A DNA stretch of 64,000 nucleotides, taken from positions 182,239 to 246,238 of the forward strand of contig MGDH01000011.1 in assembly GCA_001790855.1 (NCBI GenBank). The letters run 5' to 3'. The notes under the pieces are model-generated. The model saw only the letters and a program-made list of their open reading frames with translations, made no database searches and was not told where the DNA came from. Position 1 is the first letter of the stretch, and every line of letters begins with the position of its first letter. Below, piece after piece: positions 4,751 to 55,285 of this stretch. The position numbers were made by a program, and so were the translations under genes. The stretch is from Candidatus Schekmanbacteria bacterium RIFCSPLOWO2_02_FULL_38_14. Its GTDB lineage: Bacteria; Schekmanbacteria; GWA2-38-11.

Positions 4751-4945
4751 GACAGAATGGTGTTTATGCAAAAGAATAAAACCATAAATCTATTTTCATC
4801 GTTCGTGGATAATAAACCCATCATGATAATTATCTGGATTTTGAAATTTACTAAATTATGATACTATTCCAATATCTTATTTCAAGGATATTTTGTATAT
4901 TATAATTTGAGGCAGATTTTTTAGGTTTTCTTAAAGATAAGTTTT

Positions 4946-5410
4946 TCAGAGCTGGTTTGCAACTTTTTTTAGTTCAGATAGCATCGCTGTTTTAAATCTT
5001 TTAGCCTTGTCGTCCTTGTACTTTACACGGACTCCGCTTACAATTGAGAGATAAGCTGAAGTATCGCCCTTTATATTTATAACATCAATCCTCACGATGT
5101 TCATCATTGGATGGGTATCTGACGGAGCGCTGACCACACCGGCTCTTCCGAAAATATGCAGGCAGGTGTCATTTTCATCATATATTGAAAAAATGACCTT
5201 TTTGCTTTTTATAAGATTCCTATATGCTGAATTATCTTTATGAATTGCGAAAAGCAGGCTTTCTTCGTCTTTGATCATATAGAAAGGTATGGTAGTAAGA
5301 TTTGGAATCCCGCTTGAGTCAACTGTTGCAAGAAAAGCAAGATTATCTTTCGGGTTTATCTTTGCCTGAATTTCTTTGGTTATCTTGGTACCAAGACTGT
5401 TAGATATCAT
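4946..5410 (-). CDS. Pyridoxamine 5'-phosphate oxidase-like flavin-binding protein
   Basis: About 154-residue split-barrel protein. The opening NLAFLATVDSSGIPNLT is the usual beginning of the PNPOx-like fold, where the central strands bind FMN or a related cofactor. Further family-like strands are FYMIKDEESLLFA and VIFSIYDE. The reaction is unknown; members include general stress proteins and F420- or haem-binding proteins. The ATG at 5410 is preferred to a GTG at 5422, although the AAGGAG upstream is closer than usual. It follows meaB by about 20 bases and may be in the same transcript. Confidence 0.7.
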   Translation of the reverse strand: MISNSLGTKITKEIQAKINPKDNLAFLATVDSSGIPNLTTIPFYMIKDEESLLFAIHKDNSAYRNLIKSKKVIFSIYDENDTCLHIFGRAGVVSAPSDTHPMMNIVRIDVINIKGDTSAYLSIVSGVRVKYKDDKAKRFKTAMLSELKKVANQL

Positions 5411-5430
5411 TATCTCCTTCACCCTTTATA

Positions 5431-6363
5431 TTATAGGCTTAAAATCTTCTCCACTGCACTATAGGCATCCATCTCCCTTGCAGCAACTCTTTTTGCATAA
5501 CCTCTTATACCGCCTTTCCTTGAAGCCTTCTCAAAGGCTTTTTCAAGCAACCTTTCTTTCAGTATTTCTGTTATCTCCATCTCGCTTTTATAAATTTCCT
5601 TATCATAAAACAGACTGGAATTACTGTTCAAAAAATCTTTATGACAATGAATTATTCCCACCAGTTCTTTTATGCCTGCACCAGTTGTTGCCACTGTTTT
5701 TACAACCTGTGGTTTCCATCCATTCTTATTGGGGTTTAACTCAAGCATTATGCTTATATCTCTTTCTGTCTTGTCTGCATCATCCCTGTCTGCCTTATTG
5801 ATTACAAATATGTCGCCTATCTCCATTATTCCTGCTTTCATTGCCTGCATATCATCTCCAAACCCCGGAGCAAAGGCGACAAGAGTTGTTTTTGATATTT
5901 TAACGATATCAATTTCATCCTGTCCAACTCCTATTGTTTCAACAATTATGTAATCAAATCCGCAGCTATCCAGAACATTTACTGCATTATTTGTTGCCTT
6001 AGAAAGCCCGCCCATACTTCCTCTTGTAGCCATACTTCTGATAAAAACGCCTTCATCAAGGAAATGGTTCTGCATCCTTATCCTGTCTGCGAGAATTGCA
6101 CCCCCTGAAAACGGGCTTGACGGGTCAATAGCTATGACTCCAACTTTTTTTCCTTCTTTTCTTAAAAACTCTATTATCTTATCTGCAAGAGTTGATTTCC
6201 CTACACCGGGTGAACCTGTTATCCCAATTATATATGCCTTTCCAGTGTGGGGATATAATTCTTTCATAAATGCGACTGCTTCAGGAGAATTATTTTCAAT
6301 CTTTGTTATTATTTTGGCAACCGCTCTTGTACTTCCGTTCAAAGCCTCATGAACAAGACTCAT
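5431..6363 (-). CDS. meaB: Methylmalonyl-CoA mutase-associated GTPase MeaB/ArgK
   Basis: 310-residue G3E-family GTPase that guards cofactor loading of B12-dependent mutases. The P-loop is GSPGVGKST (residues 50-58). [18 protein letters not shown] is the MeaB signature around the switch region, and [10 protein letters not shown] contains the base-recognition NKxD motif. The ATG overlaps the stop of the B12-binding subunit gene by four bases (ATGA), so the two are translationally coupled. The catalytic mutase subunit is about 20 kb away at 27306. Confidence 0.93.
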
Positions 6364-18180: not shown

Positions 18181-19731
18181 CTATCTGATTTCTGTTTCTT
18201 TGTAATAAAATGCCAAGATATCTTTGCAGGAATATCCCTTTTTAGCCATGCTGTATGCACCCCACTGGCTCATGCCAACTCCATGACCGAATCCTCTGCC
18301 AGAAAATTCCACCAGATTTCCCTTTTTCCTGATTTCACACAGCGTACTTTTCATATTATAAGGCCCGATTTTCAGGCGAAATGTATTGCCGTTAAGTTCA
18401 AGTTTGCCTCCTTGATGAGATATTGAAACCTTGACAATCCTTCCATATCTACTCTTTTTTACAGGAACTATTTCAAAAATTTTACTGACTTTTATTCCGT
18501 TGTCATTAAGTAGTTTTTCAAGTTCTATCAATTTTATAGAATATGACCATTTATAATCCGGAAAGTCTATGCTGAACTCATCCTTATTCTCATCTAAATA
18601 TGGCAAATCAATACCCCAGACATTCTCTGAATCCTCAAGAAAGCCACCGCTGTTTGAGTGAAAATAGGCAAGAATTAACTTTCCTTTATATGTAATAACT
18701 TTGCCTTTTGTAAGGTCAACAGCGTTGTTGCTTGTTTTATTCTCTTTGTCAAACCCTCCATAAACCTGTGAAAATTTTGTTGCATCAAGGTCAAATGGTT
18801 TATTCCTGCTCAGCTTTGCTCTGAACAGGGCATAGGTTCTCGATGCTATTGCCTGCGCCTTAAGGGCTTCAATATTCCAGTTCGGACTAACCTCCTTAGG
18901 AAGTACGCCATAAAGGTATTCCTCTATGTTTAGCCTGTTTATTATTAGTAACTCATCATTGTCCTTTAATGCAGTTATCTTCCCTCTCAAATGTTTTCCG
19001 TCTATAGTTATCAAATGGCGATTTTCAGGCTCAATGGTTATCTGCTGAAAAGGAGAATCTTTTGAATCAACAACTATACCGTTCTTTGATACTGATATTT
19101 CTGTTTCTCTTTTTGGTATACAATTATTGATTCCTGAAAAATAAAATATTTTAATTCCTTCCTTTGAACCAATCCTGAAACTTTTACCTCTTTTGAAAAC
19201 AACCCTTATCTCTTCATTTGAATAGTTTTTTCTCCATTCTAAAGACTGTTTCCCCAATGATATTTCCATGATATAATCTTCACACTGCCGAAGAATAAGT
19301 TCTGCTGTTTCTCTTTGTTCTGCATCAGGATAATTCATCAGAAAATATTTCAGCTTATCCTGAGACTTTGTGTAATCACGCATTTCAAAAAAAGCTTTAC
19401 CAAGTTTTAAGTAAATTTCTCCTGAATTATTTTTATCAACAGAAAGGAATAAGGCTTTATTATACTCCTCTATTGCTTTTTCATAATATTCAAAAAAATC
19501 TCCGTAAATATCCCCTTTGATTTTATGGGCAAGGGCAATATCAGGCTTCTTATCTGACGTGTCAATGACCTCTTTTGCGAGTATTGAAGCCCCGATGAAA
19601 TCATTCTTAGCCAAAAGTTCTCTTGCCCTGTCTATCCTGAAGTCTATTTTTGTATTATTATCCGAGAAGGAGTTTAATGAAGGAATTACAAGAAATATTA
19701 TTAATATAATAGATTTTGCTGGCTTTTTCAT
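18181..19731 (-). CDS. SpoIID/LytB-domain protein with N-terminal TPRs
   Basis: 516-residue secreted protein. A signal peptide (about 1-22) is followed by TPR-like repeats (AIEEYNKALFL, KLGKAFFEMRDYTKS). The SpoIID/LytB domain then shows YLYGVLPKEVSPNWNIEALK, AQAIASRTYALF and the C-terminal GRGFGHGVGMSQWGAYSMA. SpoIID proteins bind or cleave denuded glycan strands of peptidoglycan; in Gram-negatives they are not linked to sporulation. It starts nine bases after the phosphodiester glycosidase gene, so the two are co-transcribed. Confidence 0.88.
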   Translation of the reverse strand: MKKPAKSIILIIFLVIPSLNSFSDNNTKIDFRIDRARELLAKNDFIGASILAKEVIDTSDKKPDIALAHKIKGDIYGDFFEYYEKAIEEYNKALFLSVDKNNSGEIYLKLGKAFFEMRDYTKSQDKLKYFLMNYPDAEQRETAELILRQCEDYIMEISLGKQSLEWRKNYSNEEIRVVFKRGKSFRIGSKEGIKIFYFSGINNCIPKRETEISVSKNGIVVDSKDSPFQQITIEPENRHLITIDGKHLRGKITALKDNDELLIINRLNIEEYLYGVLPKEVSPNWNIEALKAQAIASRTYALFRAKLSRNKPFDLDATKFSQVYGGFDKENKTSNNAVDLTKGKVITYKGKLILAYFHSNSGGFLEDSENVWGIDLPYLDENKDEFSIDFPDYKWSYSIKLIELEKLLNDNGIKVSKIFEIVPVKKSRYGRIVKVSISHQGGKLELNGNTFRLKIGPYNMKSTLCEIRKKGNLVEFSGRGFGHGVGMSQWGAYSMAKKGYSCKDILAFYYKETEIR

Positions 19732-19740
19732 TAATAGTCT

Positions 19741-20634
19741 TTATCTTTGGAAAATTCCAATTGCATTTATGATTTTACCTGCCCCTTTTACATAAAGCTC
19801 AATATTTTTATTTCCAAAAAACATCTGCGCTGATGGACCTCCGTCAAGATTCAGAGAGTCATTGCACCCCAATCTTTTCATCACTTCAGCAAGTTCATAG
19901 AGAGACAAGCCGTTAAATCCTGTTTCGCTTGCAAGCATCAGAATCTTTTTTTCTTTTGTCAATCCTATCGCTGTACGAGGGAGTAGTTTAAATTCATTAA
20001 ATACTGAAGGCTTGTCTATCCTTATCTCTCCATCTTTAACCAACACAGGACCCGCCTGAACTGCCTGTAAAATATCAGGAGATTTTTTATAATTTTCCTT
20101 GTAAATGATTTCTGCTGTTCTATCTTTTTTCACCAGAAAAACTCCGTTTATTCCTGCAAGCCACTTTGAGATTTCACGCCCGTCAGCAGTCAGTATCCCG
20201 ACAGGTTTCAGGCTTTTCTTATCTTTTTCATAGTCATAGTATCCCCCTGTCACTGCACCAATAGCACCTGACTTTTTCACAAGGTCTCTTATATCAGCCC
20301 CCATCTTTTCTCCGTAGTCATGGCAGTAAACAAGACGGAGTACGGTATTTTTTGGGTCAATTCGCAAAATCTTAATATTTACTTTCTGGACTCTATCTAT
20401 GAACCCTGTCTCTTTTTCAACATCTTCTTTTCTTAATCCGATTCCGTACCAATCAGGACGATGCAATGCGATTTCCTTAATCTCAACTCCATCAGCAACA
20501 ATTTTCCAATTTTTCTCAGAAAATAGCCCATCATAATTAAGTTCTCTGCTTATCTCTTTTGCAAAGGAACAAGGCAGAGAAAAAATTAAAAAAATAACTG
20601 CTAATAGTTTTATGAATATATTTTTTTGATACAT
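19741..20634 (-). CDS. Phosphodiester glycosidase (NAGPA-like) family protein
   Basis: About 297-residue secreted protein with an N-terminal signal peptide (FIKLLAVIFLIFSLPCSFA). The hallmark NLDGGPSAQ near the C-terminus, plus GAVTGGYYDYE and RTAIGLTKEKKIL, place it with phosphodiester alpha-GlcNAcase-like proteins (DUF2233), which hydrolyse sugar phosphodiesters; the bacterial substrate is unknown. ATG 20634 has AGGGG upstream. Between a secreted zinc-ribbon-like protein and a SpoIID protein, it probably acts on cell-wall or surface glycan. Confidence 0.85.
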   Translation of the reverse strand: MYQKNIFIKLLAVIFLIFSLPCSFAKEISRELNYDGLFSEKNWKIVADGVEIKEIALHRPDWYGIGLRKEDVEKETGFIDRVQKVNIKILRIDPKNTVLRLVYCHDYGEKMGADIRDLVKKSGAIGAVTGGYYDYEKDKKSLKPVGILTADGREISKWLAGINGVFLVKKDRTAEIIYKENYKKSPDILQAVQAGPVLVKDGEIRIDKPSVFNEFKLLPRTAIGLTKEKKILMLASETGFNGLSLYELAEVMKRLGCNDSLNLDGGPSAQMFFGNKNIELYVKGAGKIINAIGIFQR

Positions 20635-20654
20635 TTCGCCCCTGCTGTTCATTT

Positions 20655-50908: not shown

Positions 50909-50990
50909 TGCGAAAGGGGGGAGTCGAACCCCCATGGATTGCTCCACTGGATCCTAAGTCCAGCGCGTCTGCCAGTTCCGCCACTTTCGC
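50909..50990 (-). tRNA. tRNA-Leu (anticodon TAG)
   Basis: Class II tRNA. The acceptor stem GCGAAAG pairs fully with CTTTCGC. The anticodon stem CTGGA/TCCAG holds the loop CTTAGGA, so the anticodon is TAG reading CUN codons. The variable arm TGGA-GCAA-TCCA and T arm GGGGGTTCGACTCCCCC are clear. CCA is not encoded; the discriminator base is A. Confidence 0.95.
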
Positions 50991-51123: not shown

Positions 51124-51196
51124 TGAGCCGCACTGGAATCGAACCAGTAACCTACAGATTAAGAGTCTGTTGCTCTACCAATTGAGCTAGCGGCCC
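51124..51196 (-). tRNA. tRNA-Lys (anticodon CTT)
   Basis: Standard cloverleaf: acceptor GGGCCGC/GCGGCTC with one G-T pair, D arm GCTCAATTGGTAGAGC, anticodon stem ACAGA/TCTGT with loop CTCTTAA (anticodon CTT), T arm ACTGGTTCGATTCCAGT. CCA is not encoded; the discriminator base is A. Confidence 0.96.
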
Positions 51197-51275: not shown

Positions 51276-51303
51276 TTGACACCAAAGTCAAAACTCTTAT
51301 ACT
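51276..51303 (+). promoter_or_regulatory. Promoter of the Prp-like lipoprotein gene
   Basis: TTGACA (51276-51281) and TATACT (51298-51303) with a 16-base spacer, divergent from the tRNA promoter; leader of about 90 bases. Confidence 0.6.
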
Positions 51304-51400
51304 TAGACTATTATAGACTCCTCTGTGCAAAATATATTATTTCTTTGTAATCAGCAAATCAAATTAGTTTAATGCAAATCAGCATTAGGATTATTATTGA

Positions 51401-51907
51401 ATGAACGCCTATAAAAGTAACTGTATAAACAAAGCATTACTGTTTTTCGTCTTATTCCTTATACATACACTCGTATATGGGTGCAGTGAAAGGCAGTATA
51501 TTGTTAAATCTCCAATTGTCAATTCTGAAAAAATTTCTGACATAAAAGAAACTAAAGATATTACAAAAGGGATAAATGTCACAATCTACAAAAATAAAGA
51601 TGGAATCACTTATGGGTTTACTGTTACAGGACACTCAAGATATTCACAGAAAGGCTTAGATATAGTTTGCGCTGGAGTAACAATATTGGTCTATAATGCA
51701 GTCAATTCCCTTGAAAGGTTTACTAATGACCGGGTTGAAAAAGAAATTATTGAGAATGGTTATGCAAAATGTATTCTTCCTGATTTAAAAAACGGAAAAG
51801 GAAGTAAAGAGGCAATTGTTTTACTGAAATCCACTGAAGCAAGCATGAGAGACATTGAATATTCTTACGGTTCACAATATGTAAAAGTAACCGTCATCAA
51901 AGAATAA
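51401..51907 (+). CDS. Lipoprotein with Prp-type cysteine protease domain
   Basis: 168-residue protein. A signal peptide (about 10-27) ends in lipobox LVYGC with Cys28 as lipidated residue, and a linker runs to about residue 57. The rest matches Prp, the protease that trims the N-terminal extension of ribosomal protein L27 in Firmicutes and relatives: GINVTIYKNKDG, catalytic His78 in VTGHSRYSQKG, catalytic Cys90 in LDIVCAGVTILVYNAV, and C-terminal strand QYVKVTVI. The 12-residue His-Cys spacing is exact for the family. Export to the envelope is unexpected for a ribosome-processing enzyme. Confidence 0.75.
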   Translation: MNAYKSNCINKALLFFVLFLIHTLVYGCSERQYIVKSPIVNSEKISDIKETKDITKGINVTIYKNKDGITYGFTVTGHSRYSQKGLDIVCAGVTILVYNAVNSLERFTNDRVEKEIIENGYAKCILPDLKNGKGSKEAIVLLKSTEASMRDIEYSYGSQYVKVTVIKE

Positions 51908-51930
51908 TTTTATTAATAAGGAGTTTTTCT

Positions 51931-52488
51931 ATGTCCTATAAAAAATTCTTTTTATTAATTCTTTCATTTCTGTGCTGTAACATTTTCAGCAACTACATCT
52001 CCTATTCAGAAACAGGACAGGCAAATGGAACAAAAATAAAACTTACAAGCTCTGCCTTTAAAAATGGAAAAATGATACTGGCAAAATATACTTGTGATGA
52101 CAAAGATGTCTCCCCTCCATTGTCATGGACTTCTGTTCCAAATGGCACAAAGAGCATTGCAATTATCTGTGATGACCCTGATGCGCCAATGGGTACATGG
52201 GTGCACTGGGTTCTCTACGATTTACCTGTCAGTATCAAGGAATTACCTGAAAATATTCCTTCTCAGGAAAAACTAAAGAATGGAGCAAAACACGGAATAA
52301 ATGATTTCCGCAAATTTGCTTATGGTGGTCCCTGCCCTCCAGGAGGTACACACAGATACTTATTTAAAATTTATGCTTTGGATAAGGAAACAGGGCTTGA
52401 GCCTGGAGCTACCAAGGAACAATTACTAAAGGCCATGAAAGGGCATATATTGGCAGAAGGACAGCTGATGGGAAAATACAGCAGGTAA
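51931..52488 (+). CDS. YbhB/YbcL-family (PEBP-like) secreted protein
   Basis: 185-residue protein of the phosphatidylethanolamine-binding family. Signal peptide about 1-27. The ligand pocket is formed by YTCDDKDVSPPLSW, CDDPDAPMGTWVHWVLYD and GPCPPGGTHRYLFKIYAL. Bacterial members are called Raf kinase inhibitor-like; physiological ligand unknown. AAGGAG is ideal before the ATG. 23 bases after the Prp-like gene, so probably one transcript. Confidence 0.9.
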   Translation: MSYKKFFLLILSFLCCNIFSNYISYSETGQANGTKIKLTSSAFKNGKMILAKYTCDDKDVSPPLSWTSVPNGTKSIAIICDDPDAPMGTWVHWVLYDLPVSIKELPENIPSQEKLKNGAKHGINDFRKFAYGGPCPPGGTHRYLFKIYALDKETGLEPGATKEQLLKAMKGHILAEGQLMGKYSR

Positions 52489-52507
52489 AACTCAAATGTC
52501 TTTTATT

Positions 52508-52670
52508 AGCTGTAAGCTATAAGCTTTAAGTTATAAGCTATAAAAAGCTAAAAACTTTAATTTTTATGGTTTTTACTTTATTCCCTTTCGCTACTTACTA
52601 CTTTCTACTCCCTGCTTTCTTATGTTACAGCTTATCGCTTATAGCTATTTTGAGCTTTGAACTTTAAATT
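52508..52670. repeat. Two converging 7-base-period arrays
   Basis: Left arm AGCTGTA, AGCTATA, AGCTTTA, AGTTATA, AGCTATA (52508-52542) and right arm AGCTTAT, CGCTTAT, AGCTATT, TTGAGCT, TTGAACT, TTAAATT (52629-52670). They occupy the gap between two convergent genes, where a terminator would be expected. Confidence 0.75.
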
Positions 52671-52675
52671 TTCTT

Positions 52676-53980
52676 TTATACCTTATCCAGTGCATGTTTG
52701 AGGTCTTTTATCAAATCTTCTGGCTCTTCAAGCCCAACTGAAAGACGGATACCTCCAGGATCAATCCCATCTTTTAACTGTTCTTCAAGCGGAACTGTTG
52801 AATGTGTCATTAAGCTCGGGTTTTCAATCAGTGTTTTTACCTGACCAAGACTAACAGCGAGCGTTATAGTATAGGAATTTTTAGCAATATAATCTATAAT
52901 CTTCCTGCTTGATACTCTGACTTTTAAAGGCTCCCCTTTCAAAATAAAATATATCATGTTCCCCGGGGCAAAATTTCCGTCAAAATCAGTCATCTGGCTT
53001 TTCGCAAGCCCAAACTGAGGGAAAGATGAAAGTCCGGGATAATACACTTTTTCAACCTTTGGATGACTCTCAAGAAATCGTGCAATTTCTATAGCGCTTG
53101 ATTCCTGCTTTTTAAGCCTTATTGAAAGTGTAGAAAGTCCATAAACAAGTATTGACCATGCGCTCTTAGGAGAAAGCACGCCACCAAAATCCTTGCGGTA
53201 ATTTAATAAATCTTTTTCATACTTATTTTTTGTAATTACCGCACCTCCCATCTCTGTCCCAAAACCACAAATATTTTTTGTAAGGCTGTGAACCACAATA
53301 TCAGCACCAATCTCAATTGGTCTCTGACAGAAAGGAGTTGCAAAAGTATTATCAACAATGACCCTTATCTTTTTATCTTCTGAAGCCTTTTTGTTATGTT
53401 TCTTAACTATTGTGCATATTTTTAAAATATCAATAAGTTCCATGTTCGGATTTGAAGGTGTTTCAAAATATACAACCCTAGTATCCTTTGTAAGGTTTTT
53501 AGAGAGGTTTTCTGGATTTTTTAAATCGAGAAGTTTCAGCTTTAAGCCCATTTTTGGATACCAGTTTTTAAAAAGCGAATAAGTGCTTCCATAAAGAACT
53601 CTGTGACTGATTATCTCATCTCCTGAAAATGCACATACTCCGACTGCTGCAGCTATTGCAGCCATGCCTGAAGCAAAGGTAACAGCACAATCCCCTCTTT
53701 CAGCAAAGGCAAGATTATCTTCAAGCATGCCACGTGTTGGTTCTCCAAGCCTGTCATAGATATATATTGGCGGATGATGGATTTCTTCTGTTGCATCTGC
53801 TCCAAACTCTTCAAATCCTCTTGCACCCCTTTTTACAGAATCAAGGCGGTAAGCAGATGAAGAAGAAATTGGCGGGACTACATGGTGCTTGTAGTCCCAT
53901 TTTGTTGACTTAAATCTTCCATGTATCAAGAGAGTTTTTATTGAATAAAAACCGCTTTTTACCTTTTGAAACATCACCAT
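52676..53980 (-). CDS. Cys/Met metabolism PLP-dependent enzyme
   Basis: 434-residue fold-type I PLP enzyme of the cystathionine gamma-synthase / methionine gamma-lyase / homoserine sulfhydrylase family. IYIYDRLGEPTRGMLED, TFASGMAAIAAAVG, FETPSNPNMELIDI, VIVDNTFATPFCQRP and PLP Lys in VVHSLTKNICGFG are conserved, as is the C-terminal GGIRLSVGLEEPEDL. The exact reaction cannot be assigned from sequence alone. GGAGG precedes ATG 53980. Confidence 0.9.
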   Translation of the reverse strand: MVMFQKVKSGFYSIKTLLIHGRFKSTKWDYKHHVVPPISSSSAYRLDSVKRGARGFEEFGADATEEIHHPPIYIYDRLGEPTRGMLEDNLAFAERGDCAVTFASGMAAIAAAVGVCAFSGDEIISHRVLYGSTYSLFKNWYPKMGLKLKLLDLKNPENLSKNLTKDTRVVYFETPSNPNMELIDILKICTIVKKHNKKASEDKKIRVIVDNTFATPFCQRPIEIGADIVVHSLTKNICGFGTEMGGAVITKNKYEKDLLNYRKDFGGVLSPKSAWSILVYGLSTLSIRLKKQESSAIEIARFLESHPKVEKVYYPGLSSFPQFGLAKSQMTDFDGNFAPGNMIYFILKGEPLKVRVSSRKIIDYIAKNSYTITLAVSLGQVKTLIENPSLMTHSTVPLEEQLKDGIDPGGIRLSVGLEEPEDLIKDLKHALDKV

Positions 53981-54205: not shown

Positions 54206-55285
54206 TCTTTTAAAAACATGATTAAGATTATTAACACCATCTGGTGTAGTTCCAAACACTTTTCTCCAGACATCCTGACTTTCCATGCAGAGGTAAATTG
54301 GAATATTGCTGTTATAATTTCTTATGAGCAAAACCACTTTTCTGTATGCGTTAACTCTCAATGGTTTAAAATACCTGAGTTTCCTGTCAGGACATATTAC
54401 CATTTCACCATTTAAAATATTACTTTGATAAAAGCGTTCACTAATAATTGACTTCATCTGCGGAGAAAAACGCAAACATCCAAGACTTATCCATGGTATT
54501 GATTTTGGATTTATATTTTTAAAAATTTTTTCAATAACTTTAGCATAATCTGCTTCCCATCCATCGTATAGAATTATTGGATCAAAATGGAAAGCTATAT
54601 TGTATCCGTTCTGCTGACACACTACAGCGGCATCTATTCTCTGTTCAAGAGAAGCAGAACATAGCTCTTCAGAATCAATTATTCTTTGAGGGTTCACAGA
54701 CCATGCAACAACTGTTTTCCCTCCATGGTCTAAGCCAACAAGGTTTCTTATCTCATTTGTTTTGGTTTTAAGCTCAAGAACTGCATTTTTTCTCCTTGCA
54801 AAAAATGGTACTATTATTTTTGAAAAACCTGTGAGGTAATCAAAAGCAAGGCTATCAGAAAGTTCTCCTGTCCCTATGCGAAAATATTTCGATTGATTCT
54901 TTTCTATAAGATTTTCTAACTCGCTGAGCATTGCATCTACATTAGAAAATACCTTCAAGAGAGGATTATTGTTAAGATATTCCTGCATTATGCAGTAAGA
55001 ACAGTCAATTGGACAGTTGGTTGCAAAGTTAATAAAATAATAATTACAGCAAACCATTTCTTTTGTTCCAGGACACTTTTTTAAAAAAGATCCCTTATTC
55101 TCTGTTACAAGCAGATTCCTTTTCCCGCTGCCAACAGGATCATCAGATTTTAAAATTTTAGCCAAAACATCCCCTGAAGTATCTATATAAAATATACTGG
55201 AAGTATTTGCTGATGAAGCTATATTTTTGGCTATAACATTATCTTTGGATTTCTTCTCAATATAGATATTTTCTATAATAGACAT
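54203..55285 (-). CDS. SplB-like radical SAM protein
   Basis: 360-residue radical SAM protein resembling spore photoproduct lyase. CCNYYFINFATNCPIDCSYC contains the cluster motif Cys91, Cys95, Cys98; later ELKTKTNEIRNL and FHFDPIILYDGWE are SplB-family features, as is the SLGCLRFSP segment. True SplB repairs spore DNA photoproducts; in non-spore-formers the role is unknown. No sporulation genes are evident here. It lies downstream of tsaD. Confidence 0.8.
   Translation of the reverse strand: MSIIENIYIEKKSKDNVIAKNIASSANTSSIFYIDTSGDVLAKILKSDDPVGSGKRNLLVTENKGSFLKKCPGTKEMVCCNYYFINFATNCPIDCSYCIMQEYLNNNPLLKVFSNVDAMLSELENLIEKNQSKYFRIGTGELSDSLAFDYLTGFSKIIVPFFARRKNAVLELKTKTNEIRNLVGLDHGGKTVVAWSVNPQRIIDSEELCSASLEQRIDAAVVCQQNGYNIAFHFDPIILYDGWEADYAKVIEKIFKNINPKSIPWISLGCLRFSPQMKSIISERFYQSNILNGEMVICPDRKLRYFKPLRVNAYRKVVLLIRNYNSNIPIYLCMESQDVWRKVFGTTPDGVNNLNHVFKR

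Follow-up and report, generated by a model that had tools for sequence, protein, structure and literature searches.

A predicted lipoprotein form of the Prp cysteine protease encoded in a Candidatus Schekmanbacteria genome

Prp is normally an intracellular protease that trims ribosomal protein L27. In the window (the whole stretch of 64,000 nucleotides analysed here) we found a gene that joins a Prp domain, in one open frame, to the signal peptide and lipobox of a bacterial lipoprotein; we call its product lipo-Prp. Our favoured reading, which we hold with moderate confidence, is that lipo-Prp is an exported, membrane-tethered, site-specific cysteine protease that probably acts outside the cytoplasm, on an envelope substrate other than L27 or FlhB. 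The parts of the gene are as follows.

51401..51907, + strand: lipo-Prp open reading frame, 168 aa (frame and profile match)
51401..51484, + strand: signal peptide with an n-region (K5/K11), a hydrophobic core (12-26), the lipobox LVYG and the acceptor Cys28 (PS51257 rule, hydropathy, AlphaFold2)
51485..51571, + strand: linker, residues 29-57, mostly of low confidence, a predicted disordered tether of ~29 residues (AlphaFold2, codon use)
51572..51904, + strand: Prp cysteine-protease domain, residues 58-168 (Pfam, alignment, AlphaFold2, structure comparison)
51632-51634, + strand: His78 codon CAC, within the Prp domain
51668-51670, + strand: Cys90 codon TGC, within the Prp domain

The Prp domain was recognized by profile and by structure. 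Pfam model PF04327 matches residues 58-159 with an E-value of 1.9e-21 (score 76.5 bits, cut-off 27), and the NCBIfam Prp models match below their equivalog cut-offs, as expected of a divergent member of the family. The AlphaFold2 model has a pLDDT >90 over most of residues 58-168. Its comparison with solved Prps gave Z-scores of 14.0 to 17.2 (17.2 for 2idl and 15.3 for the substrate-bound 7kld), with the next unrelated match at 6.6, so the fold that the first-pass annotation had named from the letters is borne out by agreement with Prp crystal structures. The catalytic residues had been placed correctly as well: His78 and Cys90 are 12 residues apart, a spacing shared by 48 of 50 distinct Prp frames and by S. 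aureus Prp (SaPrp; His22/Cys34).

No Prp other than lipo-Prp is encoded in the genome, the assembly of which is 99.43% complete. The first-pass annotation had taken lipo-Prp for a paralogue acting in the envelope on another substrate; the paralogue has to be given up, whereas envelope action on another substrate remains the best reading in view of the Prp fold, the export signal, the catalytic residues and the absence of an internal start. Nor is there a second, cytoplasmic Prp next to rpmA: rplU directly adjoins rpmA on contig C21 and no prp separates them, while the lipo-Prp gene stands alone beside a tRNA-Lys gene on contig C11. The L27 protein begins MAHKKSGGS and is of the short, ready-made kind; the cleavable N-terminal extension, which the first-pass annotation had proposed to check for, is absent. 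No FlhB was found, as judged by the lack of a PF01312 match in this 99.4% complete genome. Sites of the LQ[FL]FA type, at which L27 is cleaved, occur 15 times in the genome, compared with 9 occurrences of a control pattern; the 14 that were read (all but the one in L146) lie in frames of ≤80 codons, none of which is an evident gene. Both the known and the proposed Prp targets, L27 and FlhB, are thus missing from the genome, which agrees with export.

In the mechanism that we propose, lipo-Prp would be exported by Sec and lipidated at Cys28, and the flexible linker of ~29 residues would tether the Prp domain to the membrane on the outside of the cytoplasm. There, Cys90 would serve as the nucleophile and His78 as its partner, on a mobile loop (Gly77-Asp87) that is as long as its counterpart in Prps that cut L27. 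The enzyme may clip an exposed peptide, probably an N-terminal or other flexible tail of a protein that is secreted or belongs to the envelope; this substrate would be neither L27 nor FlhB.

The gene that follows lipo-Prp encodes a PEBP protein with an export-like signal of its own.

51918..51923, + strand: AAGGAG, ribosome-binding site of the PEBP gene, 7 nt 5′ of its ATG (by eye)
51931..52488, + strand: PEBP (YbhB/YbcL-type) protein, 185 aa, the N-terminus of which is hydrophobic and resembles an export signal (profile match, hydropathy)

This gene starts 23 bp past the lipo-Prp stop, its product contains a full PEBP domain (151.7 bits), and the two genes likely share a transcript. The description of this neighbour as a PEBP-like secreted partner is right about the position and the export-like signal; the partnership is suggested only by gene order, since neither the gene pair nor lipo-Prp was found in the other genomes searched. 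It is doubtful that the two proteins form a functional envelope pair, in which PEBP would be an inhibitor, a substrate or a lipid-sensing partner. The adjacency, the short gap and the strong AAGGAG before the second gene speak for it, and both N-termini are export-like, although the nearest relative's PEBP (58% identical) appears to start at the domain and so seems to have no signal; that relative's gene is located elsewhere, with no Prp beside it. The PEBP family constitutes MEROPS inhibitor family I51, to which the inhibitor of yeast carboxypeptidase Y belongs (PMC5361777), and a protease-inhibitor pair is therefore conceivable from the gene order in one genome; known PEBP inhibitors, however, target serine peptidases. 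An unlikely elaboration is a Prp recruited to the envelope as a lipoprotein, with a secreted PEBP as its regulator, that would cleave envelope proteins specifically. Positions 52490-52680 of the window, which separate the PEBP gene from a convergent gene of Cys/Met metabolism, are AT-rich and contain repeated AGCTATAAGCT-like words.

The residues around the active site bear on whether lipo-Prp would act as a protease. In an alignment of 19 Prps, G77, H78, G85 and C90 of lipo-Prp are invariant and D87 is nearly so; by register these five residues correspond to G21, H22, G29, C34 and D31 of S. aureus Prp, respectively. Mutations of G21, H22, D31, C34 and S38 abolish the activity of S. aureus Prp (PMC9405229). 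The essential Ser38 is Thr94 in lipo-Prp, and 2 of the 50 other frames compared likewise have Thr at this position; the S38A variant of the S. aureus enzyme is inactive, and a Thr replacement is absent from that report (PMC9405229). By alignment, Ser38 to Thr94 appears to be a conservative change, and the other essential residues of the S. aureus enzyme (Gly, His, Asp and Cys) are all kept. As the overall identity of lipo-Prp to other Prps is ~20-35%, the retention of the essential residues argues for selection on catalysis. By sequence, both the predicted export and an intact active site have good support. The mature protein has a basic pI of 8.67. An exported protein that is not a protease, with the fold kept as a peptide-binding or chaperone module of the envelope, seems unlikely to us. 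It would suit the chaperone role for L27 that has been suggested for Prp (PMC9405229), the Thr in place of Ser38 and the absence of the known substrate motif from long frames, but both catalytic residues together with Gly77, Gly85 and Asp87 are kept in a protein that has otherwise diverged to about one third identity, and other Prps also have Thr at the Ser38 position.

The N-terminus of lipo-Prp, MNAYKSNCINKALLFFVLFLIHTLVYGC, contains two lysines, then a hydrophobic core (maximum 15-residue Kyte-Doolittle mean of 2.46) and then the lipobox LVYG before C28, which passes the PROSITE PS51257 rule; the n-region, the h-region and the lipobox with its Cys are those of a bacterial lipoprotein. The fusion of signal peptide, lipobox LVYGC and Prp domain claimed in the first-pass annotation is therefore real at the level of the frame. 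Only lipo-Prp among the 52 genes of the window passes the rule, as does 1 of 62 spurious ATG frames. When starts were simulated with a first-order random model of intergenic composition, 10 of 200,000 gave an open ATG frame of 57 codons with a valid lipobox. Codon usage is unlike that of genes over the first 28 codons (log-likelihood ratio -0.166), which is common in signal peptides, and gene-like over codons 29-57 (0.229). AlphaFold2 predicted a helix at residues 6-26 followed by a low-confidence linker, with pLDDT <50 at residues 27-41 and 49-51. This single helix, with positive residues before it, could also be read as an uncleaved anchor that takes the place of the lipid and still leaves the Prp domain outside the cytoplasm, and Tyr at position -2 of the lipobox is allowed but less usual. 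We regard such anchoring as quite improbable, given that the PS51257 rule is fully obeyed and that the genome encodes signal peptidase II (LspA; PF01252, 140.6 bits).

The named loci and viral contigs were scanned with a 3-row alignment, the alignment of 19 diverse Prps being too divergent for this purpose. The phylum is sparsely sampled: four of its genomes, including the source, were compared, and Prp is absent from the other three, one of which is only 70% complete. Elsewhere, a sample of 386 genomes contained 30 others with Prp, and a second phylum had it in 29 of its 39 genomes; 67 named loci (mostly of Paenibacillus and Lachnospiraceae) and 5 viral contigs also carry it. A signal peptide is visible in none of ~135 other Prp loci, so the signal-bearing relatives for which the first-pass annotation had suggested a search did not turn up. 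Of the frames, ~105 were inspected in full, and ~30, mostly from the phylum with 39 genomes, were judged by their length, because frames of ~100-130 aa are too short for signal, linker and domain together. The Prp frames of >120 aa in other genomes (G032, G129, G265, G179, G314, G261, G387, G397, G400, G402, G410, G417 and G419) were inspected individually as candidate exported Prps; all are without a signal peptide, and most reflect upstream read-through of an open frame. One Prp frame, L130 (G419) 1001-1393 on the minus strand, has no ATG near the domain start and altered active-site surroundings (GHDNSGPRGENVICAA). No close relative of the whole lipo-Prp protein was found in the genome and viral contigs searched, and the matches from the phage and plasmid collections, at 29-45% identity, were all to ordinary Prps. 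Identity to the closest sequence is 37%; the nearest rows in a tree of Prps are those of Bacillota, and the tree did not resolve the origin of lipo-Prp. In the open-access literature searched, no exported Prp is described. Lipo-Prp is therefore known from one genome, and this singleton status limits the claim.

The surroundings of the gene and the signals at its start are listed below.

50909-50990: tRNA-Leu, which with tRNA-Lys forms a variable site in the phylum
51124..51196, - strand: tRNA-Lys(ctt), divergent neighbour of lipo-Prp
51276..51303, + strand: sigma-70-like promoter TTGACA-16 nt-TATACT, 97 bp 5′ of the lipo-Prp start codon (consensus scan)
51387..51390, + strand: AGGA, possible ribosome-binding site, 10 nt 5′ of the lipo-Prp ATG (by eye)

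At the same tRNA region, one relative has an integrase and another a gene for an MsrA/MsrB lipoprotein, and it is this difference in gene content that marks the site as variable. The latter gene (L033 of G002, 4784-5863, from a genome of the same order) encodes a fused MsrA/MsrB with the lipobox VGGCSN and is flanked by the same tRNA-Leu and tRNA-Lys, so that here, too, the site holds a gene for an exported protein. In a genome of the same family, a partly masked tyrosine-recombinase-like gene (L032 of G001, 494-1404) adjoins tRNA-Lys at the equivalent position, which suggests an integration hotspot. No phage genes were recognized around the lipo-Prp locus. Further away in the window are a gene for a spore-photoproduct-lyase-like radical SAM protein (54206-55285, minus strand; PF20903, 122 bits) and one for a SpoIID-domain protein with a signal peptide (18184-19731, minus strand), which is adjoined by the gene of an exported phosphodiester glycosidase (NAGPA; 19744-20652).

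The coordinates, frame and stop first assigned to the 168-codon lipo-Prp gene are correct. A TGA in frame stands directly before the ATG, so the frame has no further 5′ extension. The promoter ascribed to the gene corresponds to a promoter-like site with 11 of 12 consensus matches, from a consensus scan that found 11 sites where 6.3 were expected. No ATG, GTG or TTG was found in frame between the start and the Prp domain, and a cytoplasmic form therefore cannot be made by ordinary initiation. A cytoplasmic Prp translated from an internal non-standard start, or a recently acquired gene without function, would account for the observations that every other Prp inspected starts at the domain, that the tRNA site is variable and that phylum mates have no such gene, yet both are very unlikely in the face of the missing start codons, the coding character of codons 29-57, the rarity of random open lipobox frames, the intact catalytic site and the lack of a known cytoplasmic substrate.

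If the envelope reading of lipo-Prp is true, it would show that adding a signal peptide can shift a protease with one dedicated ribosomal substrate into a different compartment, and the Prp family would have a use outside ribosome assembly and outside the cytoplasm. Lipo-Prp also bears on the question of the role of Prps in bacteria without extended L27: since FlhB is absent and export would remove the cytoplasmic candidates, the search for a substrate narrows to the envelope and the question becomes testable.

Compared with the YsxB-type Prps (PF04327, MEROPS C108) of S. aureus, S. mutans (SMU.848) and S. pneumoniae (2idl), lipo-Prp shares the fold, the His-Cys spacing of 12, a Gly-Asp loop of 11 residues and, apart from Ser38, the known essential residues. 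It differs from the YsxB type in that it has a signal peptide, a lipobox and a 29-residue tether, in that its genome has no L27 extension and in that its gene lies outside rplU-rpmA; it differs from SaPrp by Thr for Ser38 and by its basic pI (4.45 is reported for SaPrp). The L27-processing system is characterized by extended L27, the gene order rplU-prp-rpmA and a cytoplasmic location, and lipo-Prp departs from it in all three, the location being a prediction; the proposed FlhB-processing Prp has its counterpart in FlhB, which the lipo-Prp genome lacks. The Prps of Thermotoga maritima (TM1457; 1s12) and of spirochaetes are, like lipo-Prp, kept without extended L27 and have a non-acidic pI; unlike lipo-Prp, none of those reviewed is described as an exported protein. 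The loop of TM1457 is short, unlike that of S. aureus Prp (PMC9405229), whereas the loop of lipo-Prp is as long as that of the S. aureus enzyme. Phage-encoded Prps next to portal genes have the same domain and are, like lipo-Prp, solitary and away from rplU-rpmA, but those read have no signal peptide. The downstream gene shares the full domain of YbhB/YbcL-type PEBP proteins (MEROPS I51) and differs by its own export-like signal; to our knowledge, a partnership of PEBP with Prp has not been described before. Taken against these systems, the view of lipo-Prp as an uncommon variant of a known family, and not a new kind of system, is well-founded.
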